A DNA stretch of 39,989 nucleotides from an uncultured Verrucomicrobiota bacterium (GTDB lineage: Bacteria; Verrucomicrobiota; Kiritimatiellia; Kiritimatiellales; Tichowtungiaceae). Numbering within the stretch: position 1 is the first letter of the stretch; each line of letters opens with the position of its first letter. The stretch is from assembly GCA_903831085.1 (NCBI GenBank), contig CAIKWE010000015.1, forward strand, positions 1 to 39,989. The letters are read 5' to 3'. A program made the position numbers and the translations under genes. Positions 1,773 through 22,230 of the stretch are shown piece by piece. The notes beneath the pieces were generated by a model, which was not told the DNA's origin, did no database searches, and worked only from the letters and a program-made list of their open reading frames with translations.

Positions 1773-1797
1773 GCCGGTTCCAATGTTTGGAACCGGC
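1773..1797. repeat. TTCCA-N5-TGGAA palindrome with extended 11-bp arms
   Basis: Arms GCCGGTTCCAA (1773-1783) and TTGGAACCGGC (1787-1797) are perfect complements around TGT. The 15-bp core is 1778-1792. It lies between the convergent fic and rhlE genes and could help terminate transcription, though no T-run follows on either strand. It is the longest-armed member of the dispersed family seen in this window. Confidence 0.85.
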
Positions 1798-1837
1798 ATT
1801 TCCCAGCGGCCTGCAGTCTGAGGTCTACAGCCTTCTC

Positions 1838-3163
1838 TTATCGGCTTCCCGAACGTCGGCTGGGCGAAAACGATCCGCCTTTATGTGTCGGGCGCGGCGA
1901 ACGGTGCTGTCCTCCGCCATGACTCGGACCACGGGACGAAGGTCCGGATGAACGGCGGTGTCCGCCGCCCTGCCGACCTTTCGGTTCAGGCCGTGCATCA
2001 GTGCCGGTAGCCAGTCGCGCGGTTTCAGAATGATATTTGTGCGTCTTGTCCACGGGAACGGTTTTGCGGATCAGTTTTTCGATGTCGCGCAGAAAGTCGC
2101 GTTCGCGGGCGGAACAAAATGCAACGGCGTCGCCGTCCATTCCGGCGCGGGCGGTGCGGCCGATGCGATGAACGTAAGTTTCCGGTTCTTCGGGCAGATC
2201 ATAATTCACGACGTGCGTGATGCCGTCCACATCAAGGCCGCGCGCGGCGATGTCGGTGGCGACCATGGCGCGTAGCTTGCCGGTTTTAAAATTATGCAGC
2301 GCCGTTGTGCGGGCGTTCTGCGATTTATTGCCGTGAATGGCGGCGGCCGTGATGCCCGCTTGAACCAACTGCCTGACGACCTTGTCTGCGCCGTGCTTGG
2401 TGCGGGTGAACACAATGACTTTGTCCATATTGTGGTCGGTGATCAGATCGATCAGCAGTTCATCCTTGTTCTCTTTATCGACGAACATCAGTTTCTGCGC
2501 GATGCGCTCAACCGTCGGCTGACCCGGATCAATGGTGATCTGAACGGGATCGTGTAGCAGTTCTTTGGCGAGACTCGCGACCACCGGCGGCATCGTCGCC
2601 GAGAAAAAGAGCGAGTGACGTTTTTTCGGCAGCTTGGCGATCACCTTGCGGACAGAAGGAATAAATCCCATGTCGAGCATGCGGTCGGCTTCATCGAGAA
2701 TAAACAGCTCGATCTGGTCGAGATGAATATGACCCTGTTGCATCAAGTCGAGCAGACGGCCCGGCGTGGCAACGACCACATCGAGACCGCGGCGCATCGC
2801 CTGAACCTGCGGATTCTGACCAACGCCGCCGAAAATGACGGTGTGCGAAACCTTCACGTGTCGACCGTAGGTCTTGATGCTGTCGCCGATCTGGGCGGCC
2901 AGTTCACGCGTCGGAGTAAGAATCAGCGCGCGCGGTCTTCCGCCGGGCGCGGTGCGTTTTGTTTCCGTCATTTCCTGCAGAAGCGGCAGTGTGAACGCGG
3001 CGGTTTTGCCGGTTCCGGTCTGCGCGCAACCGAGCAGGTCGCGGCCTTCCAGCAGATGCGGAATCGCCTGCTGCTGAATGGGTGTGGGAATGGTGTAGCC
3101 TTCTTCGGCCACAGCGCGTTGCAGCGGCTCAATTAGAGCCGCGAATACATTTTGTGATTTCAT
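1838..3163 (-). CDS. rhlE: DEAD-box ATP-dependent RNA helicase, RhlE type
   Basis: ATP-dependent RNA unwinding protein, expected in ribosome assembly and RNA turnover. All core motifs are visible in order: Q-motif near residues 7-30, AQTGTGKT (47-54), PTRELA (84-89), TPGRLLDL (133-140), DEAD (157-160), SAT (188-190), ARGLD (308-312) and HRIGRTAR (332-339). After the two RecA domains comes a tail of about 60 residues rich in G, R, S and H, typical of RhlE-like RNA-binding extensions. The start at 3163 ([10 protein letters not shown], 441 aa) follows a GAAGG ribosome site. A longer reading from 3271 adds 36 residues with no family match. It stands alone, convergent with the Fic gene. Confidence 0.92.
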
Positions 3164-3320
3164 GAACCTTCTTTTCCGTCCGGAATATTTAAAAAACTCT
3201 CTGCCTGCCGGACGTGTAGGGAAAGAAGATGCCGCATCAATTGCGGCGTGCGGTTCGTAAAGTCGAACCAATTGAGCGGAGGGTTGTAGGCTTATGCTGT
3301 CTCCGTGTCAACTGAAGAGT

Positions 3321-3350
3321 TTCACCACAGAGGGCACAGGGGCACAGAGA
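3321..3350. repeat. CACAGAGG-type degenerate spacer repeat
   Basis: A short run of near-repeats of CACAGAGG/CACAGGGG fills 3321-3350, preceded by TTCAC. Similar TTCACCACAGAGGCACAGAG words are scattered through intergenic DNA of many unrelated bacteria and often generate spurious protein predictions. It lies upstream of the NfeD gene and explains why a longer reading of that gene from 3305 should not be trusted. Confidence 0.6.
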
Positions 3351-3352
3351 GG

Positions 3353-3453
3353 TTCCAATGGTTGGAAGAATTGGCCCGCAGAAAAACGCCGGAGGCTTCC
3401 AACCCTTGGAAACTTCTTGGCGTCTTGGCGGTCATTTTTTCCAAACACTGGAA
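3353..3453. repeat. Cluster of three TTCCA-N5-TGGAA palindromes
   Basis: Three exact copies of the 15-bp form lie at 3353-3367 (centre ATGGT), 3397-3411 (centre ACCCT) and 3439-3453 (centre AACAC), all in the spacer between rhlE and the NfeD gene. The spacing is 44 and 42 bp, close to four helical turns. The 3397 copy is identical to the one inside the inositol-phosphatase gene at 12759. Confidence 0.85.
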
Positions 3454-3487
3454 CTTTTTTGTTCCATCGGAGCGGAAGGCAGGTAGA

Positions 3488-3961
3488 ATGCGCCGCATGA
3501 GCTGGTATATTACTCTTTTGGTCTGCGGGCTGTTTCTGGTCGGCGTGGAGATTTTCATCCCCGGCGGCGTGGTCGGCGCGGCCGGCGCGGCGGCGCTGAT
3601 CGGCGCGGCGGTGATGGGCTTTATGATTTTCCCGCTGTGGCTGGGCTGGCTGAGTCTGCTTCTGATTCTTGTGCTGACCGCGATCGCGGCGTTTGTCTGG
3701 ATGAAGTATTTCCCGAAGAGCCCGATGGGCAAGGCGCTGTCGCTGACGCAGCATATTTCCAAAAAGGATCAGGATGATTCGACCTGGAAGCCCGGCATGA
3801 AAGGCACCGCGCTGAGTATCCTGCGCCCTGCCGGCAAAGCGCTGATCGAAGGTCGCCATGCGGATGTGATCGCCGATGGAACCTGGATTGAACAAAATGC
3901 CGCCATCGAGGTCATTAAGGTGGAAGGCAACAGAATTTATGTGCGGGAGATGAAACATTGA
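3488..3961 (+). CDS. NfeD-like membrane protein (short form)
   Basis: Short NfeD proteins are membrane partners of SPFH/flotillin proteins. This 157-aa product has two to three membrane segments in the first 80 residues (WYITLLVCGLFLVGVEIF; a Gly/Ala-rich segment; WLSLLLILVLTAIAAFVW). A soluble OB-fold-like domain follows (GMKGTALSILRPAGKALIEG onward, ending VEGNRIYVRE). The ClpP-like protease domain of long NfeD proteins is absent. The start at 3488 (MRRMSW) follows AAGGCAGG; starting at 3497 is also possible. FloA is two genes downstream, supporting the pairing. Its stop overlaps the TTG start of the next gene, implying translational coupling. Confidence 0.85.
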   Translation: MRRMSWYITLLVCGLFLVGVEIFIPGGVVGAAGAAALIGAAVMGFMIFPLWLGWLSLLLILVLTAIAAFVWMKYFPKSPMGKALSLTQHISKKDQDDSTWKPGMKGTALSILRPAGKALIEGRHADVIADGTWIEQNAAIEVIKVEGNRIYVREMKH

Positions 3962-5100
3962 GAACTGGAATTGGAAAATTTGGAATATTGCTCGGCGCGC
4001 TACTGTTTACGCAACATGCCGGTGCAATTGAGTTTGTGCAGCGCGATCAGTTCATCAGCAGCGAAGCGGAAACCCTGCGCGATGAAACATGGATTTCGGC
4101 GCAGACTATCACCATCAGCGGCGAGACGCTCGACGATCTGTTCGCGGCGGGCGGTGTTCTTGATCTGCGCGGAAATTTTAAAAGCGATGTCTGGGCGGGC
4201 GGCGATCAGGTGATCGCGGCGGGCCGTTTCAGCGATCATGTACGCCTGATTTCACGCACGGTGCAGGTTTCCGGAACGTTCGGCGGTTCGCTGACGGCAA
4301 TGGGCACTACCGTTAAGATTGATCCGTCGGCAACGATTGCCAAAAACGTTCTCTGCCTTGGCGAAAATATCATCAGCGAAGGTTCGGTTGCAGGCAACGT
4401 CCGGATCGTGGCACAAAAGGCGACGCTCGGCGGAAAGATTGCAGGCAATGTTTCCATTACGGCTCAGGAGATTGTGATTCTGCCCGGCGCGATGATCGGC
4501 GGCGACCTAAGCTATACCGCGCCCAAAGAGCTGGTGCTCTCCCCTTCTGTCACGCTCGGCGGCAAACTTATCCGCACGTTTGAACCTCTGCCGCCAAGAC
4601 AGTTCCTTAAGCCTAATCTGGCAGGACATTTTGGTTTTGCCTTCGCCGCTCTGCTGACCGGACTGGTTTTCAGTTCGATCTTCTCGCGCTACACCGCCAA
4701 CACCGTTCAGTTGCTGCGCACCTCACGCGGCGCCTGCCTGCTCACCGGGTTCGCCGCGCTGTTTCTTATTCCGATGAGCGCCTTCTTGCTGATCTTCACT
4801 CTTGTCGGAGTGCCGCTATGTGTTCTGATGATTCTCTTCTACTGCATTCTGCTCTACCTCAGCAAAGTCGTGGTCGGCCTGTGGCTTGGTGCTTTGATTC
4901 TGCGCCGCAAGGAAATCTCGAAACACAACCAGGCGGGCGCTCTGGCTGTCGGACTGCTGGTTATCTATGCCTTGACGGCCTTCACCGCCATCTCCTTTTT
5001 CATCAGCATCCTGATCGCGATATACGGTCTCGGCGCGCTGATTCTGGCTCTTTTCAGAAAACCGGTGCTGTTCATTCAGTCGCCGAATGACATTAATTAA
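3958..5100 (+). CDS. Exported beta-helix (bactofilin/polymer-forming-like) protein with C-terminal membrane domain
   Basis: The 380-aa product begins with a signal-peptide-like stretch (GILLGALLFTQHAGA). Residues about 30-200 form regular turns rich in G, V and I such as GTFGGSLTAMGTT and GKIAGNVSI, typical of right-handed beta-helix polymer-forming domains. From about residue 220 come four or five membrane segments. The start is TTG at 3958, overlapping the upstream TGA. It is supported by GGGAG 8 bases before it and because no in-frame ATG would keep the signal sequence. Position between NfeD and FloA suggests a role in membrane organisation; exact function is unknown. Confidence 0.7.
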   Translation: MRTGIGKFGILLGALLFTQHAGAIEFVQRDQFISSEAETLRDETWISAQTITISGETLDDLFAAGGVLDLRGNFKSDVWAGGDQVIAAGRFSDHVRLISRTVQVSGTFGGSLTAMGTTVKIDPSATIAKNVLCLGENIISEGSVAGNVRIVAQKATLGGKIAGNVSITAQEIVILPGAMIGGDLSYTAPKELVLSPSVTLGGKLIRTFEPLPPRQFLKPNLAGHFGFAFAALLTGLVFSSIFSRYTANTVQLLRTSRGACLLTGFAALFLIPMSAFLLIFTLVGVPLCVLMILFYCILLYLSKVVVGLWLGALILRRKEISKHNQAGALAVGLLVIYALTAFTAISFFISILIAIYGLGALILALFRKPVLFIQSPNDIN

Positions 5101-5121
5101 ACAACAATGGAGGAAATCATC

Positions 5122-6135
5122 ATGAGTACTATATTGGGCTTGTTTTTACTGGTCGTCGTCTTTGTTTTTTCGGCGGTTATTCTGTCCGTGCTCGCGGTCT
5201 GGGTTCAGGCCTGGGGTTCGGGCGCACCGATCAAACTCTATAACCTGATCGGGATGAAACTCCTGCGCAAAGTTCCGGTCACACTGATCGCCCGGGCGCG
5301 AATTCAGGCCATCAAAGCCGGAATTGATATCAGCAGCGACCTGCTCGAGGCGCATTATCTCGCCCGCGGCAACGTCGTCAACGTGGTGCAGGCGCTGATC
5401 GCCGCCGACAAGGCCAACATCAAACTGAACTTCCAGCAGGCCGCCGCCATCGACCTCGCCGGCCGCGACATTCTTGATGCCGTCACCACCAGCGTTAACC
5501 CGAAGGTGATCGACTGCCCGAACCCGAAACAAGGCACAACCTTCCTCGACGCCGTTGCCAAAGACGGTATCCGTCTGCTGATCAAAGCGCGCGTCACCGT
5601 CCGCACCAATCTCGAACAGCTCGTCGGCGGCGCAACAGAAGAAACCATTATCGCCCGCGTCGGTCAGGGGATCGTCAGCGCCGTCGGTTCGATGGACTCC
5701 TACAAAAAGGTTCTCGAAAATCCCGATAACATCAGCCGCAAGGTGCTCGACAGCGGACTCGACGCGCAGACCGCGTTCGAAATTGTCTCGATTGATATCG
5801 CCGACGTGAGCGTCGCCGGAACCGCCAATACCGCCAACGTCGGCGCGATGCTCGAAACTGAGCGCGCTGAAGCGGACAAAAAACTTCGTCAGGCGGAAGC
5901 TGAAGGCCGCCGCGCCATGGCCATCGCACAGGAACAGGAAATGCGCGCCCGCGTTCAGGAAATGCAGGCCAAGGTGATCGAAGCACAGGCGCAGGTTCCG
6001 CTCGCCATTGCCCAGGCCTTTAAGGAAGGACACCTCGGCGTGATGGATTTCTACCGCATGCAGAACGTCATGGCCGATACCTCGATGCGCGAATCGCTCG
6101 CCGGCGGTGACGAATCGGCTCATAAGAAAGATTGA
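5122..6135 (+). CDS. floA: Flotillin-like protein FloA
   Basis: FloA proteins assemble into membrane microdomains and influence membrane fluidity and protein clustering. An N-terminal hydrophobic hairpin ([20 protein letters not shown]) is followed by the SPFH-like region typical of the YqfA/FloA family ([54 protein letters not shown]). The C-terminal third is an Ala/Glu-rich helix (about residues 240-310). Length (337 aa) matches the family. ATG 5122 is chosen because GGAGG at 5109-5113 sits 8 bases upstream; the ATG at 5107 lies on top of that ribosome site. Confidence 0.95.
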
Positions 6136-6137
6136 GC

Positions 6138-6788
6138 ATGACTGATCTTGTTGTCAGAGCGGACGGCGGACTTGTCTGGCTGGTCGTCGGCGTTTTCTGG
6201 GTCATCGCCCAGATCGCCGGCGCCGCGGCCAAGAAAAACCAGCCACGCCCGCCGCCTTCCGATACCGGCGAAGAGAGCAGGCCTCCTGAAGATCCGATCG
6301 CCGAACTGCTACGTAAAATGGCCGGGGTTCAGGAATTCAGAGTCGAGCCGCCGAAGTTCATCGAAGAACCGGAGGAACCTGTTTTCACGCCGCAACCGGT
6401 GCGGCGCAGTGAGGTGAGAACAAAAAGTCCGTGGACGCCGGCCGTGTCGCGCCGTAATGGAATGACGGCGGATGACATCAAGGCTTTGCCGGACATTGAG
6501 CCGTTGCGCCGCGAAATCAGGGGCCAGAGAGAGACGCCTCCCGCTCCGGTTCCGGTCCAGCCCCGGATCGATGCGCATCTGAAGATGAGCGCCTTCCGCA
6601 ACAGCGTTCCCACCATCAAACTGCCGACGTTGAATCTGAGTTTCCAAGGTTCGGCAACGTCTATCCAAAATGCTCCGAACCTTGGAAAAATTCTGAGCCC
6701 GTCGGATAAGAGCTCTCTCCGTCGCGCGATGCTCAGCCACATCATTTTCTCGCCGCCCAAGGCGCTCGAACAGGCTGGCAAACGATAA
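6138..6788 (+). CDS. Hypothetical membrane-anchored proline-rich protein
   Basis: I do not recognise this 216-aa protein. One N-terminal hydrophobic segment (GLVWLVVGVFWVIAQIAGAA, residues about 10-29) is followed by a long Pro/Arg/Glu-rich, probably disordered cytoplasmic stretch. The C-terminus is basic and slightly hydrophobic (SLRRAMLSHIIFSPPKALEQ). It starts 2 bases after the floA stop and ends the operon, so it may be a FloA accessory. A TTG at 6132 overlapping the floA stop is an alternative start. The segment for residues about 168-184 contains a 14-bp inverted repeat belonging to the dispersed palindrome family. Confidence 0.65.
   Translation: MTDLVVRADGGLVWLVVGVFWVIAQIAGAAAKKNQPRPPPSDTGEESRPPEDPIAELLRKMAGVQEFRVEPPKFIEEPEEPVFTPQPVRRSEVRTKSPWTPAVSRRNGMTADDIKALPDIEPLRREIRGQRETPPAPVPVQPRIDAHLKMSAFRNSVPTIKLPTLNLSFQGSATSIQNAPNLGKILSPSDKSSLRRAMLSHIIFSPPKALEQAGKR
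6641..6688. repeat. 14-bp inverted repeat inside a coding region
   Basis: TTTCCAAGGTTCGG (6641-6654) and CCGAACCTTGGAAA (6675-6688) are perfect complements separated by 20 bases. Each arm resembles half of the TTCCA-N5-TGGAA palindromes found elsewhere, so this looks like two related half-sites placed head to head. The arms translate as part of SFQGSA and PNLGK. A stable mRNA stem is expected. Confidence 0.85.
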
Positions 6789-7010
6789 GCCGCTCCGCTA
6801 CCGCGAATTTCCGAACGAATCGCTTGCTGTATTCGGGGTATTAGATATACAAAGCAACCCGTCGAACTGGGTATTTAAGACGATGAAACTTCGCTGAGAA
6901 AATACGCAGAGTGCTGTTATGGCGACGCGCATTAAATACCGGAAATAGAACGGATTGTGTAAAATGACCTATCGGCTTGTCTCTAGGCCAGCACGGTAGA
7001 AGGATTTCGC

Positions 7011-9671
7011 ATGTTTAAATCTCTTTTCGCCAAGATTTCACCGGTGCTGGTAGTCAAAGAGGCAACCGCAAAGCACGCCATGTCAGAGCATGAACAGCTG
7101 CTCGCCAGTTTATGTGCTCAACCGGCGGAAAAAGTTTTGCGCGTACTGGGCTCCCGGTCTGAAGGGCTGACGGCGGAGGAGGTTGAAGCCCGCATTGAAA
7201 AGTACGGCCGCAACGAGTCGGCCCATGCGGCGCGCGAGGGATTTTGGCAGGACATCCTGCGGCGCTGCCGCAGTCCGCTCGTCATTCAGTTGCTGGCCAT
7301 CGGCGGCATTTCGGTGGCGATGGGCCAAATGGTCTCGGCCGCGATCGTCGGCGGCATGGTCGTGTTGAGCGTGGGTCTCGCCTACGTTCAGGAACGGAAA
7401 TCCGGAAAAGCGGTAGAAAAGCTCCGTGAACTGGTTCAGGCGCAGGTCGCAGTAATCCGCAACGGGAAGGAAGTTGAAATCCCGATGGCGGAAGTGGTGC
7501 CGGGCGACATCGTCGTACTGGATGCCGGCGCGATTATTCCGGCCGACTTGCGGCTCCTGTCGGCGAAAGACCTTTTCGTCAGTCAGTCGGCGCTGACCGG
7601 CGAATCGATGCCGGTGGAAAAGAACGCCGCCCCGGCCTCAACCGATGATCAAGGACTGCTCGCTTCCGCCGCCGCGTGTTTTCAAGGCAGCACGGTCATG
7701 AGCGGCACGGGCCGCGGCGTGGTGGTTAATACCGGCGCCCGCACTTATTTCGGCTCGATCTCCGAGCGACTGGCTCAGCGCCAGACAGAAACCAGTTTCG
7801 ACCGGGGCATCAAGGCCTTCACCATGCTCATGATCCGCTTCATGGTCGTGATGGTTGGCGTGGTGTTTTTTGTGGTTGGACTCTCCAGAGGCAACTGGGG
7901 AGAGGCGCTGCTGTTCGGTCTGTCTGTGGCAGTAGGTCTGACTCCCGAAATGCTGCCGATGATCGTAACGGTGAATCTGGCCAAGGGCGCGCTGGCCATG
8001 TCGCACAAGAAGGTCATCGTTAAACAGTTGTCGGCGATTCAGAACCTCGGCGCGATTGACGTGCTGTGTACGGATAAGACCGGCACGCTGACGCAGGATC
8101 GCGTGATGCTGGAGCGGCATGTGGATGTAACCGGGCGTGAAAGCGATGACGTTCTGCGCTACGCTTACATGAACAGTTACTATCAAACCGGTCTGCGAAA
8201 TCTTCTGGATCGGGCTGTACTGGCGCACAGCGAATTGGACGTGGAGCACAGTTGCCGTAAGGTAGACGAATTGCCTTTCGATTTTCAGCGCCGCCGCATG
8301 TCAGTGGTGATCGAGCATGAGGGCGATCACGTTCTGATCTGCAAGGGTGCGGTGCATGAGATTTACGCCTGTTGCGACCGCTATCAGGTGGAAGATGAAA
8401 TTTTCCCGCTGATCGATATGATCCGCGACGATCTGTTCGATGAAGTCGCCGATCTGAACCGTGACGGATTCCGCGTGCTGGCCGTCGCTTACAGGGAATA
8501 TCCGCGGGAAAAACCCGTCTTCGGTGTTGCGGATGAAACCGGGCTGATCCTGCTCGGCTATATCGCGTTCTTCGACCCGCCGAAGGAATCCACGGCGCAG
8601 GCCATTGCGCTCCTGCGCGAAGCGGGCGTGGCGATCAAGATTTTGACCGGCGACAATTCTCTGGTGACACGCAAGGTTTGTAACGACGTGGGCCTGGACG
8701 GACAGCACATTCTCACCGGCGACGAACTGTCAAAATTATCACAGGAAGCGTTTGCCAAAGCGGTGGAGGAAACAAATGTCTTTGCGCGACTTTCGCCAAA
8801 CCAGAAGGAACAAATCATCCGGCAGTTGCAGGCGGCCGGCCACGTTGTGGGTTATCTGGGCGACGGCATCAACGACGCTCCCGCACTCAAGACGGCCGAT
8901 GTCGGGATTTCGGTGGATTCAGCCGTGGATGTGGCTAAAGAAGCGGCCGACATTGTCTTGCTGGAAAAAAGTCTCCTCGTGCTGGAAGACGGTATCCGGC
9001 AGGGGCGGCGCGTTTTCGCGAACATCATCAAGTACGTTCGCATGGGGGCCAGTTCCAATTTCGGCAACATGTTCAGCGTTGTCGGAGCGAGCTATTTCCT
9101 GCCCTTCCTGCCTATGCAACCGGTGCAGATTCTGCTCAACAATCTGCTTTACGATTTCTCGCAGACAGGGATACCGACCGATAGCGTGGATGCTGAACTC
9201 GTGGCAAAACCGCGCAAGTGGAATATCAGCAACATCCGGCGTTTCATGATGTTCATCGGCCCGATCAGTTCGATCTTCGACTATGCAACGTTCGGACTGA
9301 TGTTGTTCTTCTTCCACTGTCGCGACTTCACACGGGCCGGAATTTCCGCAGTGGATAAAGCCGGACTGGAGAAGTTGTTCCAGACCGGCTGGTTTGTCGA
9401 GTCGCTGTTAACGCAAACGCTCATTGTCCATATCATCCGGACCAAACGCATTCCGTTCTTCGGCAGCCGGGCGTCCCTGCCCATGACGCTAACCACGCTG
9501 GCGATCATGGCCGTGGCTGTATGGCTACCCTACTCGCCGTTCGCCGCGTCATTGGGTTTTGTGCCGTTGCCGCCCGTCTATTGGTTGTGGATCAGTTGTT
9601 TCCTTCTCGTCTACAGTGTACTGACCCATACAATTAAGGTATGGTTCCATAAGCGTTACGGAGACGATTGA
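7011..9671 (+). CDS. mgtA: Magnesium-translocating P-type ATPase (MgtA/MgtB family)
   Basis: P-type IIIB ATPases import Mg2+ across the inner membrane using ATP. The 886-aa protein has the actuator motif TGES (residues 196-199), phosphorylation motif DKTGTLT (D355), hinge GDGINDAP (617-624), and the family-specific stretch around SSNFGNMFSVVGASYFLPFL. About ten membrane segments are distributed in the usual pattern. ATG 7011 follows AAGGA. The gene following begins one base after its stop and encodes an EIIA-like PTS protein, then a CorA-like remnant, so a cation-homeostasis operon is likely. I see no recognisable M-box in the 222-bp upstream spacer; a TAAAAT at 6960-6965 could be a -10 element. 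Confidence 0.95.
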   Translation: MFKSLFAKISPVLVVKEATAKHAMSEHEQLLASLCAQPAEKVLRVLGSRSEGLTAEEVEARIEKYGRNESAHAAREGFWQDILRRCRSPLVIQLLAIGGISVAMGQMVSAAIVGGMVVLSVGLAYVQERKSGKAVEKLRELVQAQVAVIRNGKEVEIPMAEVVPGDIVVLDAGAIIPADLRLLSAKDLFVSQSALTGESMPVEKNAAPASTDDQGLLASAAACFQGSTVMSGTGRGVVVNTGARTYFGSISERLAQRQTETSFDRGIKAFTMLMIRFMVVMVGVVFFVVGLSRGNWGEALLFGLSVAVGLTPEMLPMIVTVNLAKGALAMSHKKVIVKQLSAIQNLGAIDVLCTDKTGTLTQDRVMLERHVDVTGRESDDVLRYAYMNSYYQTGLRNLLDRAVLAHSELDVEHSCRKVDELPFDFQRRRMSVVIEHEGDHVLICKGAVHEIYACCDRYQVEDEIFPLIDMIRDDLFDEVADLNRDGFRVLAVAYREYPREKPVFGVADETGLILLGYIAFFDPPKESTAQAIALLREAGVAIKILTGDNSLVTRKVCNDVGLDGQHILTGDELSKLSQEAFAKAVEETNVFARLSPNQKEQIIRQLQAAGHVVGYLGDGINDAPALKTADVGISVDSAVDVAKEAADIVLLEKSLLVLEDGIRQGRRVFANIIKYVRMGASSNFGNMFSVVGASYFLPFLPMQPVQILLNNLLYDFSQTGIPTDSVDAELVAKPRKWNISNIRRFMMFIGPISSIFDYATFGLMLFFFHCRDFTRAGISAVDKAGLEKLFQTGWFVESLLTQTLIVHIIRTKRIPFFGSRASLPMTLTTLAIMAVAVWLPYSPFAASLGFVPLPPVYWLWISCFLLVYSVLTHTIKVWFHKRYGDD

Positions 9672-12322: not shown

Positions 12323-13102
12323 ATGAAAAACCCTTCGAACAAACAACTGCTGGATGTCTGCGTCGCTGCCGCACGGAAAGCTGGCGAACACGCCCTGAAA
12401 AATCTCCACCGGCGAGAGGAAGTCGCGCAGCATTTTGATCACGACGTGAAACTGGTGATGGACAGCGAGTGTCAGCGCATCGCCGAAGGCGTCATCCATA
12501 ACCATTTTCCTGACCATGCGATTCTTGGTGAAGAGGGTTCGATTGTCCGAGATCACGCCTTTGAATGGATCATCGATCCGATTGACGGCACTGTTAATTA
12601 CACGCACGGACTTCCAGGCTGGTGCTGTTCCATCGCCGTACGGTGCGACAGCGAAATCCTGGCGGGCTGCGTCTTTGTTCCGGTGGTCAGTGAGTGCTAC
12701 ACCGCAACGGTTGACGGCCCCGCTCTGTGTAACGATGCGCCGATTCAGCCCTCCGTTGTTCCAACCCTTGGAAAAGCCATACTGTTCACCGGCCTCACCA
12801 AGGATATTGACGCGCGCGCCATCACTTTTTTCGGCGATGCGGCCCGCACGATGCACAAGTTACGCATCCAGGGCTCGGCGGCGATTGATGTCTGTCACGT
12901 GGCTTGCGGACGCTCCGATGGTTATTTTGAGCCCGGGCTCTACCTTTGGGACATCGCCGCCGCCGGACTGATCGCCGAACGCGCCGGCGCGGTTTGCACA
13001 GCCTATCCGCGCGCCGAAGAACACGGCCTGCGTTTTCTTTGCACGAACCCGCAGATTCACCACGCCGCGCGTGAACTGGTCGAAAAATATTTTAAGGATT
13101 GA
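12323..13102 (+). CDS. Inositol monophosphatase family protein
   Basis: Mg2+-dependent phosphatases of this family hydrolyse inositol phosphates or related sugar/nucleotide phosphates. The metal site is complete: GEE (residues 69-71), DPIDGT (85-90, with D85 and D88) and WDIAAAG (209-215, D210). Length is 259 aa, normal for the family. ATG 12323 gives the usual N-terminal helix; a longer reading from 12194 overlaps the upstream gene and lacks similarity. A palindrome at 12759-12773 encodes VPTLGK (146-151), in the variable region before the C-terminal half. It is four bases upstream of a methyltransferase and probably co-transcribed. SuhB and CysQ-like roles cannot be separated from sequence alone. 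Confidence 0.88.
   Translation: MKNPSNKQLLDVCVAAARKAGEHALKNLHRREEVAQHFDHDVKLVMDSECQRIAEGVIHNHFPDHAILGEEGSIVRDHAFEWIIDPIDGTVNYTHGLPGWCCSIAVRCDSEILAGCVFVPVVSECYTATVDGPALCNDAPIQPSVVPTLGKAILFTGLTKDIDARAITFFGDAARTMHKLRIQGSAAIDVCHVACGRSDGYFEPGLYLWDIAAAGLIAERAGAVCTAYPRAEEHGLRFLCTNPQIHHAARELVEKYFKD
12759..12773. repeat. TTCCA-N5-TGGAA palindrome within the inositol-phosphatase gene
   Basis: An exact copy with centre ACCCT, identical over 15 bases to the intergenic copy at 3397-3411. It is read as V-P-T-L-G-K, a different codon phase from the copies in rlmN. Confidence 0.85.
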
Positions 13103-13105: not shown

Positions 13106-13930
13106 ATGGCGGCGAAGAAAAAGATTCCGGATTTACATTATCTCTACGAAGCCGCCGTGCAAGGAGTGGGGACCGATCTCGATTTCGCGGCGCGGATTTT
13201 CAGGAAAAAAAACGGGCGCAAACCGAACGATCTGCGCGAGGATTTCTGCGGCACCGCCGCTCTCGCCTGCGAGTGGGTGAAGCGTTCCCCAAAACACCGC
13301 GCGTGGGGCGTGGATATCGACCGACCGACACTTAATTGGGGCATTGCTCACAATGCCGCACAGCTCTCCCCGCAAACTGGAAAACTGAATCTACTCTGCG
13401 CCGATGTGCTGAAAGTCAAAACTCCGCCGGTTGATCTGGTGATGGCGCTCAATTTTTCCTACTGCGTTTTCAAAACGCGTGACCGGCTCCGCGCCTATTT
13501 TAAAAAGGTGCGCGGCGCGCTGAAAAAAGACGGACTGTTCGTAATGGACATCTATGGCGGCACGGAAGCGGTCGGCACCAAACTGGAGCCGCGCAAAGTG
13601 GAAGCCTTTACATCTGCCGACGGAACCCGAGTGCCTTCCTTCAAATACATCTGGGATCAGGCCGAATATAACGTGATCGATCATCATGTCGTGAATTACA
13701 TCCACTTCAACATTCCAGGCATTGGAAGAATCGAGAAGGCTTTCACCTACGACTGGCGGCTCTGGACCCTGCCCGAGCTGCAGGAACTGCTGATTGAGGC
13801 CGGATTCAAGTCCGCGGAGATTTATCTGCACGGCTGGACCAAGGACTGCGAGTCCGATGACATTTATCGCCGCCGCACATCCTACGAAAACGCCCTCGGT
13901 TGGGTTGCCTACGTCGTCGGAATTAAATAA
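13106..13930 (+). CDS. Class I SAM-dependent methyltransferase
   Basis: The 274-aa protein has the Rossmann-fold signatures of class I methyltransferases: motif I region REDFCGTAALACEW (residues about 37-50), the acidic GVDID after strand 2, and VMALNFSYC as motif IV. A long C-terminal part (TYDWRLWTLPELQELLIEAG) matches the usual cap after strand 5. The substrate is unknown. It starts four bases after the inositol-phosphatase stop, suggesting one transcript. The copy of the dispersed palindrome at 13713-13727 is read as I-P-G-I-G. Confidence 0.85.
   Translation: MAAKKKIPDLHYLYEAAVQGVGTDLDFAARIFRKKNGRKPNDLREDFCGTAALACEWVKRSPKHRAWGVDIDRPTLNWGIAHNAAQLSPQTGKLNLLCADVLKVKTPPVDLVMALNFSYCVFKTRDRLRAYFKKVRGALKKDGLFVMDIYGGTEAVGTKLEPRKVEAFTSADGTRVPSFKYIWDQAEYNVIDHHVVNYIHFNIPGIGRIEKAFTYDWRLWTLPELQELLIEAGFKSAEIYLHGWTKDCESDDIYRRRTSYENALGWVAYVVGIK
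13713..13727. repeat. TTCCA-N5-TGGAA palindrome within the methyltransferase gene
   Basis: Exact copy with centre GGCAT, read as I-P-G-I-G-R. It is the reverse complement of the rlmN copy at 21996-22010 (centre ATGCC), over all 15 bases. Confidence 0.85.
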
Positions 13931-14005: not shown

Positions 14006-14407
14006 ATGAAAATATTGGCGACCATCGATTTTTCGATCACATCGGAAAACATTCTGAAAATCACAAAGACCTACGCCAAAAAGATGGGCGCAGAGGTGTT
14101 CCTGATGCATGCGGAACCCTCACAAACCGACCTTGAGCAGGAGGAATCTGACACGAAGCCTGAATCCATGCGCCTGAAAAAAGACGCTCAAGCTCTTGAG
14201 CGGGCCGGAGTTAAAGTCACGCCTGTTTTTTTGCAAGGGCCGGTTTGCGAGACCATTCTTGCGAAAGCGATAGAACTTGAAGCCGATCTCATTATCACAG
14301 GATCGCATGGACATGGCCGAGGGAGCTGCAAGTCGCCGGTCGGCCACATCAGTGAGTGTCTTCTGCTCCGGTCAAATATACCGGTTCTGGTCGTCCCTAT
14401 TGGCTGA
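14006..14407 (+). CDS. Universal stress protein, UspA family
   Basis: Small cytoplasmic nucleotide-binding stress protein. The 133-aa chain begins with the typical MKILATIDFS strand. It ends with the ATP-binding signature GSHGHGRGSCKSPVGHISEC (Gly-x2-Gly-x9-Gly-S/T type) and the closing strand IPVLVVPIG. A GGGGG ribosome site lies about 8 bases upstream. It is monocistronic, followed by a probable terminator before gyrB. Specific stress signal unknown. Confidence 0.9.
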   Translation: MKILATIDFSITSENILKITKTYAKKMGAEVFLMHAEPSQTDLEQEESDTKPESMRLKKDAQALERAGVKVTPVFLQGPVCETILAKAIELEADLIITGSHGHGRGSCKSPVGHISECLLLRSNIPVLVVPIG

Positions 14408-14529
14408 TTCCCATCTGGTTTTAATGCCGTTTAGAGCCATTTCCGGCGGTCTTTTTTCGGTTCGAAATTTTTCCGATAGTTTGAACTTTTTTGCTTGTGT
14501 TTTCCAAACATCGAAAAACCAGGCCAACC

Positions 14530-17093
<2,564 letters not shown>

Positions 17094-17114
17094 CGCACAG
17101 GAAACCGCACCGCA

Positions 17115-19616
17115 ATGAATACACAGCAACATCAGCGTATTGACCTGGTCAATATTGAAGACGAAATGCAGCGCGCCTACATCGACTACTCGATGAGCGT
17201 CATCATCGGCCGCGCCCTGCCCGATGCGCGCGACGGTCTCAAGCCCGGCAACCGACGCATCCTCTACGCCATGAAAGAACGCGGCTGGGTCGCTTCCAAG
17301 CCGTTCGTGAAGTGTGCAAAAGTGGTCGGGGAAGTGATCGGTAATTATCATCCGCACGGTGACACCGCCGTCTACGACACGATGGTGCGTATGGCGCAGG
17401 ATTTCTCCATGCGTTGCATGCTTATCAATGGTCAGGGAAACTTCGGATCGATCGACGGCGACCGTCCGGCCGCCTACCGGTACACCGAATGTAAACTGCT
17501 TCCGCTGGCCGAAGACATGCTCGCTGACATTGATAAAAACACTGTCAATATGCGTCCCAACTTTGACGAAACTCTCATGGAGCCGACCGTGCTGCCCGCG
17601 CGCATCCCCAACCTGCTCATCAACGGCAGCACCGGGATCGCCGTCGGGATGGCGACCAACATCCCGCCGCACAATTTAAGTGAAGTGATCGATGGAACCA
17701 TCCATCTGATCGAAAATCCTGACGCCAGCGTGGAAGATCTCTGCCGGTTTGTGAAAGGCCCAGACTTTCCGACCGCCGGTGTCGTGTACGGCCTTGGCGG
17801 AATTAAGTCGATGTACCTCACCGGTCGCGGACGCATCCGGATGCGCGGTAAAGCGGACATCGAGGAATTCGGTAGCAACCGCGAACGGATCATCATCACC
17901 GAAATCCCCTATGCGGTGAACAAAGCCGCAATGATCACTAAGATGGCGGAACTGGTTCGCGAAAAACGTCTCGAAGGCATTTCCGACATCCGCGACGAAT
18001 CCGGCAAACTCGGCATCCGCGTGGTCATTGAACTCAAACGCGGCGCGATCGGCAAAGTTGTGCTCAACAACATCTACAAGCACACGCAGCTGGCGAGCAC
18101 CTTCGGCGCGATTATGCTGGCGATCGACAACGGCCGCCCGCGTGTCATGAACCTCAAGGAACTTCTCCAGTGCTTCATCAAGCACCGTTTCGAAGTCATC
18201 ACCCGCCGTACGCAGTTCGATCTCGACAAAGCGTATGCACGCGCCCATATCCTCGAAGGTCTGCTGATCGCCCTTGATAATCTGGACGAAGTGGTGAAGA
18301 TCATCCGCGCATCCAACGCACGCGAAGAGGCACAGGAAAAACTGATTGCGCGTTTTCATTTCAGTGAACTGCAGGTCAAAGCCATTCTCGACATGCGCCT
18401 CTACCAGCTGACTGGCCTCGAACGTGAAAAAATCCAGGCCGAATACGACGAGTTGCAAAAGCTGATCGCCTACCTGACCGATCTGCTGAAACACGAAGAC
18501 AAGCTCTACGGCGTCATCAAAGACGACCTCGTCGGGATCAGAGCCAAATACGGCGACCCGCGCCGCACACAGCTTGAAGTCGATGAGGGCGAAATTGAAA
18601 TTGAAGATCTCATCGCGGATGAACCGTGCGTGATCACTCTTTCCAATACCGGCTACATCAAACGCGTGCCGGTCGACACCTATCGCCAGCAACGCCGCGG
18701 CGGCAAAGGCGTAATCGGCATGGATACCAAAGAAGAGGATTTTGTCGAGCACGTCTTTACCGCCTCAACGCACGACTACCTGCTCTGCTTCACACAGGCC
18801 GGTCGCATGTACTGGCTCAAAGCCTATCATGTTCCGGAAGGCAGCCGTCAGGCGCGCGGACGCGCTCTGGCCAACGTCATCGAAATGGGTGCGGATGAAA
18901 AACTGGCTTCCATTATCTGTGTTCGCGAACTGGACGACGACGAGCACAATCTGCTGATGGCCACCAAAAACGGCATCATTAAGAAGACCGTTCTGTCGGC
19001 CTACAAAAACATCCGCGCCGGCGGCATCAACGCCATTAATATTGATGAAGGCGATGAACTGGTTGGTGTGCAGCTCACGGGTGGCAAAGACGAGATTATC
19101 CTCAGCATGCACAACGGCAAAGCCATCCGGTTTAAAGAACAGGATGCCCGCCCGCTGGGTCGTGTTTCGCGCGGTGTTAAAGGCGTTACGCTCGAAGGTG
19201 GCGATAAAGTCGTTTCCATCGAAATCGTCAACACCTCCGCCACCATGATGGCGATCACCGAAAACGGTTACGGCAAGCGCACCAGCTTCGACGAATACCG
19301 GCTGCAGAGCCGTGGCGGCAAAGGAATCATCAGTATCCAAACCACGGAACGCAACGGCAAGGTCGTCTGCGCCCATGCGGTGACAAATGAAAACCGCATC
19401 ATGCTCATCTCCCAGAACGGACAAATGATCTGCATCGGAGCCAGCGACCTGCGCGTTATTGGACGCAATACGCAAGGCGTGCGACTGGTTAACCTGAACG
19501 AAGGCGACCTGATCGTCTCCGCCGCCGTTCTCGATGCGGAGGCCGCTGTAGAAACAGTAGCCCCGGTCTCGACCGAGGTAGTTGAATCAAACGTCCCGGA
19601 ATCCGACGTTGAGTAG
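17115..19616 (+). CDS. gyrA: DNA gyrase subunit A
   Basis: Breakage-reunion subunit of gyrase. The catalytic tyrosine is Y123 in YRYTECKL. The quinolone-determining segment reads HPHGDTAVYDTMVRMAQ, with Thr at the usual Ser83 position and the acidic residue retained. The C-terminal beta-pinwheel includes a canonical GyrA box QRRGGKG (residues 526-532 with the preceding Q), separating it from ParC, and a second RGGKG blade. The 833-aa chain ends in an acidic tail (about 25 residues rich in V, E, D). Directly downstream of gyrB, so one operon. Confidence 0.97.
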   Translation: MNTQQHQRIDLVNIEDEMQRAYIDYSMSVIIGRALPDARDGLKPGNRRILYAMKERGWVASKPFVKCAKVVGEVIGNYHPHGDTAVYDTMVRMAQDFSMRCMLINGQGNFGSIDGDRPAAYRYTECKLLPLAEDMLADIDKNTVNMRPNFDETLMEPTVLPARIPNLLINGSTGIAVGMATNIPPHNLSEVIDGTIHLIENPDASVEDLCRFVKGPDFPTAGVVYGLGGIKSMYLTGRGRIRMRGKADIEEFGSNRERIIITEIPYAVNKAAMITKMAELVREKRLEGISDIRDESGKLGIRVVIELKRGAIGKVVLNNIYKHTQLASTFGAIMLAIDNGRPRVMNLKELLQCFIKHRFEVITRRTQFDLDKAYARAHILEGLLIALDNLDEVVKIIRASNAREEAQEKLIARFHFSELQVKAILDMRLYQLTGLEREKIQAEYDELQKLIAYLTDLLKHEDKLYGVIKDDLVGIRAKYGDPRRTQLEVDEGEIEIEDLIADEPCVITLSNTGYIKRVPVDTYRQQRRGGKGVIGMDTKEEDFVEHVFTASTHDYLLCFTQAGRMYWLKAYHVPEGSRQARGRALANVIEMGADEKLASIICVRELDDDEHNLLMATKNGIIKKTVLSAYKNIRAGGINAINIDEGDELVGVQLTGGKDEIILSMHNGKAIRFKEQDARPLGRVSRGVKGVTLEGGDKVVSIEIVNTSATMMAITENGYGKRTSFDEYRLQSRGGKGIISIQTTERNGKVVCAHAVTNENRIMLISQNGQMICIGASDLRVIGRNTQGVRLVNLNEGDLIVSAAVLDAEAAVETVAPVSTEVVESNVPESDVE

Positions 19617-19623
19617 ATCGGTC

Positions 19624-19977
19624 ATGTCAGCCGATCTGAGCAGTCTGGATATGACCCCTGAGTGGAGCAAAGCCGCTCCGAGGATCAGCCTGCCTCCGAA
19701 AAAACCTCAACAGAAAAAACCGTCCGCACCGAAAGGCGACGGCATTGTGCGGGTCGGACGGGAAACCAAAGGCCGCAAAGGCGCGGGCGTCACCGTAATC
19801 ACCGGTATTTCTTCACATCCCGAAGGTCTCGAAAAACTGGCGAAACAATTCAAACAGCAGTGCGGAACGGGCGGAACCGTCAAAAACGGCGTTATCGAAA
19901 TCCAAGGTGACCACCGTGACTTGCTCATTCAAGAATTATCCGCCCTCGGATATACCGTAAAAAAAGCGGGCGGATAG
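19624..19977 (+). CDS. yciH: SUI1/eIF1-like translation initiation factor (YciH family)
   Basis: Bacterial eIF1 homologues bind the small ribosomal subunit and affect start-site fidelity. This 117-aa protein has a flexible basic N-terminus (PPKKPQQKKPSAPKGDG). The SUI1 fold follows: IVRVGRETKGRKGAGVTVIT, HPEGLEKLAKQFKQQCGTGG, VKNGVIEIQGDHRDLLIQEL. ATG 19624 is 7 bases after the gyrA stop, so it probably belongs to the gyrase transcript. A longer reading from 19582 overlaps gyrA and is not supported. Confidence 0.9.
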   Translation: MSADLSSLDMTPEWSKAAPRISLPPKKPQQKKPSAPKGDGIVRVGRETKGRKGAGVTVITGISSHPEGLEKLAKQFKQQCGTGGTVKNGVIEIQGDHRDLLIQELSALGYTVKKAGG

Positions 19978-19981
19978 TCCA

Positions 19982-20049
19982 AGGTCAAAGGTCTAAATGT
20001 CGAAGGTTCGTTGAACTCTCCCGCCTTTTGACTTTCAGACTTTCGACCT
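19982..20049. terminator. Imperfect hairpin made of degenerate GTCNAAAG words between convergent genes
   Basis: The left arm (19982-20007) consists of near-repeats of GGTC-AAA. The right arm (20024-20049) is its imperfect reverse complement, about 19 matches of 25. The loop is about 16 bases. It fills the 81-bp spacer between the convergent yciH and ppiC genes and could terminate both. There is no good T-run, so the terminator role is an inference from position. Confidence 0.5.
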
Positions 20050-20058
20050 GAGACTCTC

Positions 20059-20340
20059 TTACGCCGTACGCATGGTCACTTCGACCAGGTGGTAGCCGAA
20101 CTGCGTTTTGACCGGTCCCTGCACCTTGCCAATTTCCGCGCTGAAAACCACCTGATCAAACTCACGAACCATTTGACCGGGCGAAAACGTACCAAGCGCG
20201 CCACCATCACGTCCGGAAGGACACTGCGAATGCTGTTTTGCCAGCGCGGCAAAATCCGCGCCATCGGCGATCTGCTGTTTGAGTTTGTTGCACTCCGCTT
20301 CGGTGCTCACGAGAATATGTCTTGCTGCGGCCTTTGCCAT
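20059..20340 (-). CDS. ppiC: Peptidyl-prolyl cis-trans isomerase, parvulin type
   Basis: Catalyses cis-trans isomerisation of peptide bonds before proline. The 93-aa product is a lone parvulin domain with the expected stretches ARHILVSTEAECNKLKQQI, QCPSGRDGGALGTFSPGQMV, and the C-terminal TQFGYHLVEV. Length equals E. coli PpiC and there is no signal peptide, so it is cytoplasmic. The start at 20340 follows GGGGAG; a reading from 20373 adds 11 residues without support. Divergent from hisB. Confidence 0.94.
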   Translation of the reverse strand: MAKAAARHILVSTEAECNKLKQQIADGADFAALAKQHSQCPSGRDGGALGTFSPGQMVREFDQVVFSAEIGKVQGPVKTQFGYHLVEVTMRTA

Positions 20341-20492
20341 AATCGACTCCCCTAGGTTTAAGTTAAAAGCCATAAAATGCCCTGTTCGCAGAAGAAATCA
20401 ACCCGCAACTCATCAGGCGACAGCGTTTTCGTGCTTGATGGGAACCGGACAGGCTTCTAAGTTATCCGCACACCTCAAACGATAGGATGGTT

Positions 20493-21095
20493 ATGGGAAA
20501 ACAGCGGAAAGCGACGGTTAAGCGCAAGACGAACGAAACGGATATCGCGCTGACAATTAATCTCGACGGAACCGGAACCTACTCGATTGAAACCGGTGTT
20601 CCATTTTTCAACCACATGCTCGAACTGCTTTCCAAACACTCGCTGATCGATATGGACATCAAAGCGTCCGGCGACATCAAGGTGGATTACCATCACCTCA
20701 TCGAAGATGTCGGCCTCGCACTTGGACAGGCATTCAACGAAGCGCTCGGCGAGCGGCGCGGCATCAACCGCTACGGTTTCTGGCTGCTTCCGATGGACGA
20801 CGCTTCGGCCAGCGCCGAAGTGTCGCTCGATCTCGGCGGACGTCCCTACCTCGTTTACAACATTACCAATCTGAAAAAGCTGATCCGCGATTTTGACACC
20901 GACATTCTCGGCCACTTCTGGCGGTCGTTTTGCGACACCGCCAAACTGAACCTGCATATCGACCAGAAATACGGCGACGATCTGCACCATGCGCACGAAG
21001 CGGTATTCAAAGCCGTCGCCCGCGCCCTGCGGATGGCCTGCACAGCCGACGAACGCGCTCTGGATGCCCTGCCCTCCAGCAAGGGTAAGATATAA
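20493..21095 (+). CDS. hisB: Imidazoleglycerol-phosphate dehydratase
   Basis: Histidine biosynthesis enzyme converting imidazole glycerol phosphate to imidazole acetol phosphate. The 200-aa protein is the monofunctional form without the phosphatase domain. Signatures: RKTNETDIAL, FFNHMLELLSKHS, DYHHLIEDVGLALG with metal ligands H67, H68 and E71, and the C-terminal HHAHEAVFKAVARAL. ATG 20493 is preferred over 20487, because the latter would lie within the GGATGG ribosome site. No other his gene is adjacent, so the pathway is dispersed in this genome. Confidence 0.95.
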   Translation: MGKQRKATVKRKTNETDIALTINLDGTGTYSIETGVPFFNHMLELLSKHSLIDMDIKASGDIKVDYHHLIEDVGLALGQAFNEALGERRGINRYGFWLLPMDDASASAEVSLDLGGRPYLVYNITNLKKLIRDFDTDILGHFWRSFCDTAKLNLHIDQKYGDDLHHAHEAVFKAVARALRMACTADERALDALPSSKGKI

Positions 21096-21096
21096 C

Positions 21097-21157
21097 GATA
21101 AGCGATTAGTTATGAATGATGGATATTACACTCATCACTTATTATTCAGAGTTTATC
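21097..21157. terminator. Imperfect hairpin of degenerate ATAAGTGAT words between hisB and rlmN
   Basis: GATAA and TGATG blocks at 21097-21121 pair with CATCA and TTATC blocks at 21133-21157, about 17 of 25 positions, in the 60-bp spacer between convergent hisB and rlmN. The right end overlaps the rlmN stop codon. A bidirectional terminator is likely from position. The words resemble GTGATAAGTGAT spacer repeats seen in many genomes. Confidence 0.45.
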
Positions 21158-22154
21158 ACTTCCCCAGTTGTCCGCAGGCGGCGGCAATGTCGTCACCAAG
21201 AGAATAGCGCAAGGTCACTTTAAATCCAGCGCGTTTCAGCTCATCGCCGAACGCTTTGCGTGCGTCCTCAGCAACCGGAGTAAACTGCGTGCTGGGATGC
21301 ACATTTAACTGAATCAGGTTGATGTGGGCTTTGGTGCCGCGCAGGAACTCAATCAGCGCGGCGAGATCTTCCGGTCCGTCGCTGATTCCTTTCAGAAGGA
21401 GAACCTCCACCATGAAGTCCTTGAGAACCGGGAAAACGGTTTTCAGTTTTTCCAAGGTTTGGAACTTCGCGATCGGCATGATCTGTTCGCGGACTTCCTG
21501 CCGTGCGCTATGAAGGCTTAATGCCAATTGGATATTCGGGAAACGTTCGGCAAAACGCACCATTGCATCCGGAATGCCGACGGTAGAGACCATCAGGTGA
21601 TTTTCGGACAGATTGAAAAAGCGCGGGTCGCGCAGAGTCTCCAGACATTGGAAAAGATTTTCCTCATTGAGCAAGGGTTCGCCCATGCCCATCACGACCA
21701 CATTACGCAGCGTCCGCCCTTCTTCGCGCAGAAGCCGTTTGGCGATCAAAACCTGATCAAGCATTTCGGCGGCGGCGAGGTTGCGGATAAAACCTAACTT
21801 GCCGGTGGCGCAAAATTGGCAGTCAGCGGCGCACCCGATCTGCGAGGAAATACAAAGGCTCGTCCGGCCCGATGCGATTCGTAAAATGACGGCTTCGACT
21901 TTATGGTTTTGCCCTTCGAGTTCCCTCAGGGCGGGCTTCGCCCGAAAAACCAGCTTGGTTGCGCCATCGCGCTGCGAGTCGTGGCGCTCAGAAAGTTCCA
22001 ATGCCTGGAAACAGAGTTTGCCCGCCAGTTCCGGAGCCTTCTCCAGACACTCCTCGAGCGGCAACGCCTTTTTGAAAAAGGCGTTACGAAAGAGCTTCAG
22101 CCGGTGCGGATCCCGGCAGAGCGTCTCCAATGTGCTGTCGTAAACGGAAGTCAT
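21156..22154 (-). CDS. rlmN: RlmN-type radical SAM rRNA/tRNA adenine-C2 methyltransferase
   Basis: RlmN methylates C2 of A2503 in 23S rRNA and A37 in some tRNAs. The radical-SAM cluster motif CxxxCxxC is C108, C112, C115 (CAADCQFC), followed by GMGEPLLN and STVGIPDA. The C-terminal SLGDDIAAACGQL carries C327, equivalent to the methyl-accepting cysteine. Length is 332 aa, slightly short. Three sites of the dispersed palindrome lie inside the gene, all in the same codon phase, giving FQALE (49-53), FQCLE and FQTLE. A further palindrome pair lies 27 bases upstream of the start. Cfr and RlmN are close relatives, but the RlmN-type C-terminal motif argues for RlmN. Confidence 0.9.
   Translation of the reverse strand: MTSVYDSTLETLCRDPHRLKLFRNAFFKKALPLEECLEKAPELAGKLCFQALELSERHDSQRDGATKLVFRAKPALRELEGQNHKVEAVILRIASGRTSLCISSQIGCAADCQFCATGKLGFIRNLAAAEMLDQVLIAKRLLREEGRTLRNVVVMGMGEPLLNEENLFQCLETLRDPRFFNLSENHLMVSTVGIPDAMVRFAERFPNIQLALSLHSARQEVREQIMPIAKFQTLEKLKTVFPVLKDFMVEVLLLKGISDGPEDLAALIEFLRGTKAHINLIQLNVHPSTQFTPVAEDARKAFGDELKRAGFKVTLRYSLGDDIAAACGQLGK
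21450..22010. repeat. Three TTCCA-N5-TGGAA sites within rlmN
   Basis: Copies at 21450-21464 (centre AGGTT, exact), 21639-21653 (centre GACAT, one mismatch in the left arm) and 21996-22010 (centre ATGCC, exact). On the coding strand each is read as TTC-CAN-NNN-TTG/CTG-GAA/GAG, giving FQTLE, FQCLE and FQALE. All fall in predicted helices or loops outside the catalytic motifs. Confidence 0.85.
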
Positions 22155-22180
22155 ACGGGCAAGAGGCTAGCGCAAAACCA

Positions 22181-22230
22181 TTTTCCAGACATTGGAAAAA
22201 CAGCAGAATCTTTTCCCAAATGTCTGGAAA
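22181..22230. repeat. Inverted pair of palindromes upstream of rlmN
   Basis: An exact copy (22183-22197, within a TTTTCCAGACATTGGAAAA context) is followed 12 bases later by TTTTCCCAAATGTCTGGAAA (22211-22230). This is the reverse complement of the first apart from two extra bases. The two can pair with each other or fold separately. They lie between the divergent rlmN and the GLQ-repeat gene, where they could affect either promoter. Confidence 0.8.

Follow-up and report, generated by a model that had tools for sequence, protein, structure and literature searches.

The closest described systems are iterated genomic palindromes and phased operators, and the papers named here are each cited from a part of their text. 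HIP1 of cyanobacteria is a genome-wide iterated palindrome that is rare or replaced in some relatives (PMC4390886). In repetitive extragenic palindromic (REP) elements, the palindrome bears a tag, GTAG or CGTC, and tyrosine transposases (RAYTs) are associated with the GTAG class (PMC3733652). Among the regulators, Ss-LrpB of Sulfolobus has a 15-bp palindromic operator, TTGCAAAATTTGCAA, whose arms TTGCA and TGCAA flank a 5-bp centre, and Lrp-type dimers are placed on one helix face at a spacing of two or three turns, with some binding in coding regions (PMC4046817, PMC2995911). NrdR uses two boxes with spacers of 14-17 or 24-27 bp in a helix phase-dependent manner (PMC12051234), and its boxes are located upstream of ribonucleotide reductase operons (PMC12176259). 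Here, we analysed a stretch of 39,989 nucleotides from an uncultured Verrucomicrobiota bacterium of the class Kiritimatiellia (assembly GCA_903831085.1, contig CAIKWE010000015.1), hereafter the window, which contains a dispersed family of the palindrome TTCCA-N5-TGGAA.

With a probability of about 0.6, we interpret these palindromes as operators of a putative dimeric, cooperative DNA-binding protein that would act genome-wide and probably structures the nucleoid. An earlier sequence-only reading of the window had suggested that a nucleoid or segregation protein tolerant of coding sequence could bind these sites, and this suggestion, with the protein itself still putative, is supported by the helical phasing of the sites, their indifference to gene orientation, and their excess at the DNA level within genes. 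In the open literature, partly judged by title and with most subscription papers and all preprints outside the scope, no published account of these palindromes was found. Parts of the system resemble known kinds, namely iterated palindromes and phased operators; their combination was not found described.

For the enrichment of the palindrome, we compared the window and its genome with shuffled and reversed controls. All nine exact copies reported by the sequence-only reading were found in the window, compared with a mean of 0.06 and a largest count of 2 in 100 dinucleotide shuffles, and the same arms at other spacings from 0 to 22 bp gave zero matches; in this stretch, the 5-bp spacing alone is enriched. 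Genome-wide (2.14 Mb in 60 contigs), there are 579 copies versus 3 for the reversed pattern, a count well above the expectation. An unbiased scan for gapped palindromes with two 5-base arms put TTCCA-N5-TGGAA at the top in samples of the window's genome, G010, and G014, and at a shared top in that of G048. The same scan yielded no comparable palindrome in samples of five low-count genomes (G043, G046, G055, G021, and G015).

The family had also been described as confined to the left half of the window. Beyond 22.2 kb, the window indeed lacks exact copies and has only one-mismatch matches, at 32157 and 34218; however, this gap is ordinary, because counts per 10 kb in a 354-kb sample of the genome are Poisson-like (mean 2.73, variance 2.38) and about 4.7 gaps as long as the empty right half are expected genome-wide. 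From the degenerate or split copies previously listed, the one at 21639 has one mismatch, those at 6642, 6673, and 14502 have two each, and the one near 22211 has three. The 6642 and 6673 copies are 31 bp apart. As two-mismatch matches occur at background level in the genome sample, only the 21639 copy is convincing alone.

The consensus of 92 sites from the window's genome was wTTCCAR-NSN-YTGGAAw, and when 288 sites were pooled across five sets of genomes, 95% of them had C or G as the middle base. Thus, the earlier description of constant arms holds, whereas the centre is not free: it follows the pattern R-N-S-N-Y, and the centre, earlier described as often partly symmetric, is not selected for self-complementarity, as centre pairing was no more than expected by permutation. 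The sample from the genome contained 84 one-mismatch copies versus 6 to 23 at other spacings, and 27 of these 84 have their mismatch in the outermost T of an arm and 29 in the innermost A, a concentration at arm ends that looks as it would for a binding-site matrix. The two half-sites are ten bases apart. In 166 coding sites, the first outward flank pair matched at a rate of 0.51 versus 0.50 expected by permutation. By gap type, the permutations with flank pairing as good, out of 500, were 4 for tandem, 46 for convergent, and 309 for divergent gaps, which amounts to a slight excess of pairing in the first, a smaller one in the second, and none in the third. Two half-sites that are read independently fit these data better than a hairpin.

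RNA hairpins acting as terminators or mRNA stabilisers were considered at this point. Single stretches do fold well, an 11-bp stem can form at site 1778 in a convergent gap, and a scan of positions 1600-3700 found 8 terminator-like sites versus 2.6 in shuffles, one of which (minus strand, 3403-3388) overlaps site 3397 and none of which is at 1778. However, flank pairing is not general, divergent gaps are as rich in sites as convergent ones, and the spacing follows the pitch of the DNA helix. We regard hairpins as hardly credible, the least probable of the explanations weighed here.

Further palindromes were observed in two other genomes. In G026, the variant TTCCAY-N3-RTGGAA forms arrays mostly at 22 and 31 bp; these arrays (L365, L366, and L367) are on the short contigs C98, C99, and C250. 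On two of the three contigs, they are directly upstream of a predicted gene, and one such gene leads a long co-directional run. G108, from the same phylum and another class, has 55 copies of AAGGT-N5-ACCTT in 2.4 Mb (for example, L385-L394), with the centre CAGCG/CGCTG in most listed copies and many copies near contig starts. The G108 palindrome looks like an ordinary constant repeat element.

Spacing by whole helical turns is the signature of proteins on one DNA face. For the phasing tests, we used stretches that had not been picked for sites, from nine sets of genomes, and neighbour pairs at most 130 bp apart; the G057 stretches, which were picked for arrays, were excluded. With pairs counted as independent although arrays share history, 53 of 59 neighbour pairs were within 1.5 bp of a multiple of 10.5 bp (R = 0.83), and 0 of 20,000 random sets were as good. 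The commonest spacing was 31/32 bp; outside the 30-33 bp class, 20 of 26 pairs were still phased (R = 0.67; again 0 of 20,000 random sets as good). The 17 intragenic pairs gave R = 0.94. When one-mismatch sites were included in the window's genome and G010, neighbours were mostly at 21-22, 31-32, 41-44, 52-54, and 61-63 bp. The runs of sites are short, with unrelated spacer sequence between them.

These results suggest a mechanism in which one dimer would read both half-sites, about one helical turn apart, and neighbouring dimers, on the same helix face and most often three turns apart, would cooperate. Such an arrangement resembles Lrp/AsnC operators in the 15-bp palindrome and in neighbours at two or three turns, and it resembles NrdR boxes in the paired sites at three turns. 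Unlike the Ss-LrpB operator, the arms here are TTCCA and TGGAA, and the sequence-defined sites number hundreds to thousands; unlike NrdR boxes, the sites here are genome-wide. The NrdR box sequence also differs from TTCCA-N5-TGGAA.

Both families were then evaluated as candidate readers, together with the Y1 transposase, by searching for Lrp/AsnC (PF01037), NrdR (TIGR00244), and Y1 transposase (PF01797) in 58 genomes including that of the window, drafts among them, in which an absence may be an assembly gap. AsnC_trans_reg matched 52 of the 58 genomes, including 12 that have 10 sites or fewer, while four genomes without a match have at least 50 sites. The Lrp-type gene, one copy in most genomes, is therefore present with and without sites, unlike in Lrp/AsnC systems, and its presence does not follow site density (Mann-Whitney p = 0.52, uncorrected, as in all our tests on protein presence, for kinship, genome size, and completeness). 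NrdR matched 51 of the 58, including 12 that have 10 sites or fewer, whereas five genomes lacking a match have at least 50 sites; it is likewise present with and without sites and does not follow site density (p = 0.69). Neither is supported as the reader, which may belong to a further family. In 30 Lrp loci, the window's own not among them, no exact site was found in the 200 bp that precede the open frame; one-mismatch sites occur upstream of the Lrp gene in G003 and G012.

Two observations on these candidate proteins are reported separately. The alignment of Lrp loci L242-L271 shows few basic residues at the expected recognition helix in most of them, G045 being more ordinary, and the Lrp-type protein of most genomes may have a changed or lost DNA binding. 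The NrdR open frames of G046, G051, and G055 have 315 to 426 residues versus near 155 in many others, which may point to a fusion or simply to an extended frame.

The position of sites relative to genes, which were called with a home-made codon-usage script, was analysed in several samples. In the sample of the window's genome, 53 of 92 sites fell in predicted genes versus 77.5 expected from length, and the remaining sites were in tandem (15), divergent (11), and convergent (7) gaps, apart from 6 that could not be assigned. G048 belongs to another family, and all 28 sites in 80 kb of its sequence were intergenic (15 tandem, 7 divergent, and 6 convergent). A further 116 stretches, selected for paired sites and used only for position and neighbour analyses, outside all spacing tests, showed 78 gene starts versus 87 gene ends facing the array within 250 bp. 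Among 66 proteins from array-facing starts, no Pfam family appeared more than twice, as in 66 controls, and ten genes near arrays in low-count genomes showed no recurring family.

A large conventional regulon, in which the sites would be promoter operators of one global transcription factor, was weighed against these positions. Regulators typically bind phased palindromes, sites of Lrp-type proteins are spaced at two or three turns (PMC2995911, in part), and NrdR binding depends on the inter-box spacer (PMC12051234, in part). However, a promoter regulon is disfavoured because gene starts and gene ends are faced about equally and no Pfam family recurs. Additionally, site density in convergent gaps equals that in divergent ones, with 7 sites in 2.1% of bases and 11 in 3.2%, respectively, in the window's genome, and 6 in 0.7% and 7 in 1.4% in G048; more than half of the sites in the window's genome are also within genes. 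We consider a regulon improbable.

Under the nucleoid interpretation, the protein would most likely be an architectural factor rather than a promoter-specific regulator, because the sites number hundreds to thousands and occur in gaps of every orientation and inside genes in the window's genus and order. The sequence-only reading had proposed plotting density against the replication coordinate; in the complete genome G010, 20 stretches held 0-12 sites each and no clear replication gradient emerged: sites were sparser at 0.1 Mb and over 3.2-3.8 Mb, yet the stretch at 3.03 Mb had 12. For codon typicality, the most typical gene quartile of the window's genome had 9.6 sites per 100 kb versus about 20.7, and G010 showed no trend in site density.

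To evaluate the genic sites, synonymous codons were shuffled within each gene (200 shuffles for the window's genome and 100 for G011). The window's genome had 52 coding sites versus a mean of 6.2 and a highest shuffle of 12; G010 had 64 versus 8.9 (highest 17), and G011 had 19 versus 2.9 (highest 7). The excess is six- to eight-fold in these three genomes, and all three frames are used; in G048, none was observed and none expected. The sequence-only reading had named two refuting conditions, genome-wide counts close to expectation and bases conserved as ordinary codons; with the genome counts above and this excess over synonymous shuffles, neither refuted the finding. The DNA-level constraint is strong enough to show in coding regions.

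Orthologues from 14 same-genus genomes were then compared. Seven codon positions in two of the genes, the radical-SAM-like and the methyltransferase-like one, carry sites, and from the resulting 98 genome-by-position cells, 39 have a site, 41 lack it at equal length, and 18 have an indel or missing sequence. Site-lacking orthologues differ mostly by substitution, in some cases changing amino acids (FQTLEK versus VYTLEK; VPNIGK versus VSQLGP), while the G011 site at codon 70 is inside an indel-rich stretch. In three species, the radical-SAM-like gene has sites 31 bp apart at codons 231 and 241. The helicase gene orthologues of 11 genomes have no site. The G008 gap orthologous to the triple site of the window has no exact site and, by eye, two one-mismatch forms, which look like turnover or erosion.

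These coding copies are well accounted for by the main rival, a HIP1-like or uptake-like drive, in which exact copies would be made and fixed, genes included, either by a methyltransferase coupled to repair or by preferential uptake of DNA that contains the word, and spread would result from the favour of the process and not from a job of each copy. As with HIP1, over-representation here is strong and genome-wide, genes included, and exact copies are abundant, many of them genic and with amino-acid differences between orthologues; the core also contains CCA-N5-TGG. In contrast to the site here, HIP1 has 8 bases without a gap and is linked to methyltransferases, and helix-phased arrays are unmentioned in the abstract of PMC4390886. 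Neither process predicts the whole-turn spacing, so the phasing is left unaccounted for, nor do they predict the purely intergenic sites in the 80 kb of G048. Such a drive is unlikely in our assessment.

The distribution among genomes bears on both explanations. In a survey of 387 genomes of the phylum with a completeness of 85 or more, 44 of 131 Kiritimatiellia genomes had at least 50 copies, and the 256 genomes outside the class had at most 30; therefore, high counts are restricted to the window's own class, where they are patchy. The 58 genomes that include the window's own ranged from 3 to 2297 copies, and genus g2 alone from 5 to 2297. Further contrasts were G101 (61 copies) versus G046 and G073 (4 and 7), G120 (179) versus G301 (18), and g27 (209-271) versus 29 in G268. 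Across 42 genomes of genera g1 and g2, the ratio of exact to one-mismatch copies varied from 0.05 to 2.5, suggesting that some lineages keep the sites sharp and others may lose them. Only 5-7 copies occur in each of the four smallest genomes of g2 (1.1-1.3 Mb), and larger genomes of this genus have a higher site density (rho = 0.58). This ratio, the low counts in small genomes, and the trend in g2 favour a drive, as does the loss of HIP1 in symbiotic cyanobacteria, which is a section heading in PMC4390886; on the other side, density in g1 does not follow genome size.

Among the 80 of 116 record titles listed, array-bearing records were named Kiritimatiellae, Kiritimatiellales, Kiritimatiellia, Pontiellaceae, Lentisphaerae, Spartobacteria, Verrucomicrobia, and Verrucomicrobiota, along with uncultured bacterium and one Firmicutes. 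Class identity was deduced from titles of related records and from protein similarity to these loci, which was 50-87% for the best 25 matches listed. A broad pattern of two sites matched 44 stretches of viral contigs.

The sequence-only reading had offered, as its other suggestion, a mobile REP-like palindromic unit; we extended it to a REP or a miniature inverted-repeat transposable element moved by a tyrosine transposase. The sites resemble REP elements as short high-copy palindromes, some of them genic, and they are dispersed, patchy, and often intergenic; the clustered variant arrays on three short G026 contigs would also fit. Unlike in REP elements, no GTAG or CGTC tag was found at the palindrome end, and no tetranucleotide tag at all, in the pooled flanks of 92 sites from the window's genome, 28 from G048, and 18 from G057. 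The flanks have T beside the arms in the window's genome and G048, and are A-rich (AAAAC) in G057. Moreover, the centre is variable, whereas the G108 repeat keeps its centre nearly constant; flank pairing is scant; and coding copies are not matched by shorter relatives, as insertion would predict, since most orthologues lacking a copy have equal length.

The transposase itself gave a mixed result. Y1_Tnp matched 51 of the 58 genomes; among the seven that lack it, six have 4-7 sites, which is background, and site density is lower without Y1 (p = 0.002 by the same uncorrected Mann-Whitney test). This link may reflect genome reduction, because four of these six background genomes are 1.1-1.3 Mb. 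The exception, G057, has 122 sites without a match, and Y1 is present in seven genomes with 10 sites or fewer, such as G045, with 11 matches and 4 sites. Y1 per Mb and sites per Mb were not correlated (rho = 0.19, p = 0.15). Apart from the Y1 association, little of the REP-like suggestion stood, and we find a mobile element very unlikely.

For the preferred interpretation, operators of a genome-wide nucleoid protein, several results weigh on the opposite side. The binding protein was not found; the families profiled across the 58 genomes were Lrp/AsnC, NrdR, and Y1 transposase. In G018 and G019, which have the most copies, 44 sampled sites gave spacings of 22, 28, 28, 31, 49, 51, and 62 bp (R = 0.58), and the phasing there is weak or different. 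Pairs are also a minority, as 75 of 83 groups in the window's genome are single sites, and samples of G014, G020, and G024 (31 sites) had no pair at 130 bp or less. The several-hundred-fold difference in copy number within g2 is fast for an essential architectural system, and the tandem intergenic sites have the slight extra flank pairing given above.

Among the nucleoid proteins known so far, most have a loose sequence preference. Here, a word of ten bases is precise and its phasing is readable from sequence alone, which would make binding places predictable base by base and comparable among relatives with thousands of sites or almost none. From the enrichment, the site shape, and the phasing, we infer the protein, its dimer state, its cooperativity, and its architectural role. 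A bolder extension, which we put forward tentatively and hold somewhat doubtful, is a sequence-specified chromatin of Kiritimatiellia, in which one putative protein would occupy hundreds to thousands of phased palindromes in cooperative same-face arrays, with genes rewritten to carry sites and with repeated expansion and erosion within genera.

Within the window, the palindromes have no strand and are distributed as follows. The exact site TTCCAATGTTTGGAA at 1778..1792 is in a convergent-gene gap, where its flanks happen to form the 11-bp stem. A run of three exact sites occupies a divergent-gene gap, the first at 3353..3367, the second at 3397..3411 (44 bp past the first), and the third at 3439..3453 (42 bp, or four turns, past the second). 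The 'CACAGAGGGCACAGGGGCACAGAG' stretch at about 3325-3352 adjoins this triple site and is perhaps a related motif beside the G008 degenerate sites. The exact site at 12759..12773 is within the predicted gene 12323-13102, and that at 13713..13727 is at codon 203, frame 1, of the methyltransferase-like gene, where 7 of 14 same-genus genomes, the window's own included, have an exact site. The radical-SAM-like gene carries exact sites at 21450..21464 (codon 231, FQTLE; exact in 7 of 14 genomes, own included) and 21996..22010 (codon 49, FQALE; exact in 6 of 14, own included), together with the one-mismatch site at 21639..21653 (codon 168), which is exact in 11 of 14. The last exact site, at 22183..22197, is in a divergent-gene gap.

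The window had no Rfam match at gathering scores. A Fic-domain protein with DUF4172 is encoded at its left edge (451-1671). Additionally, positions 17115-19616 and 23309-27267 place a GyrA-like gene a few kb off a second topoisomerase A/B pair, resulting in two close type II topoisomerases.

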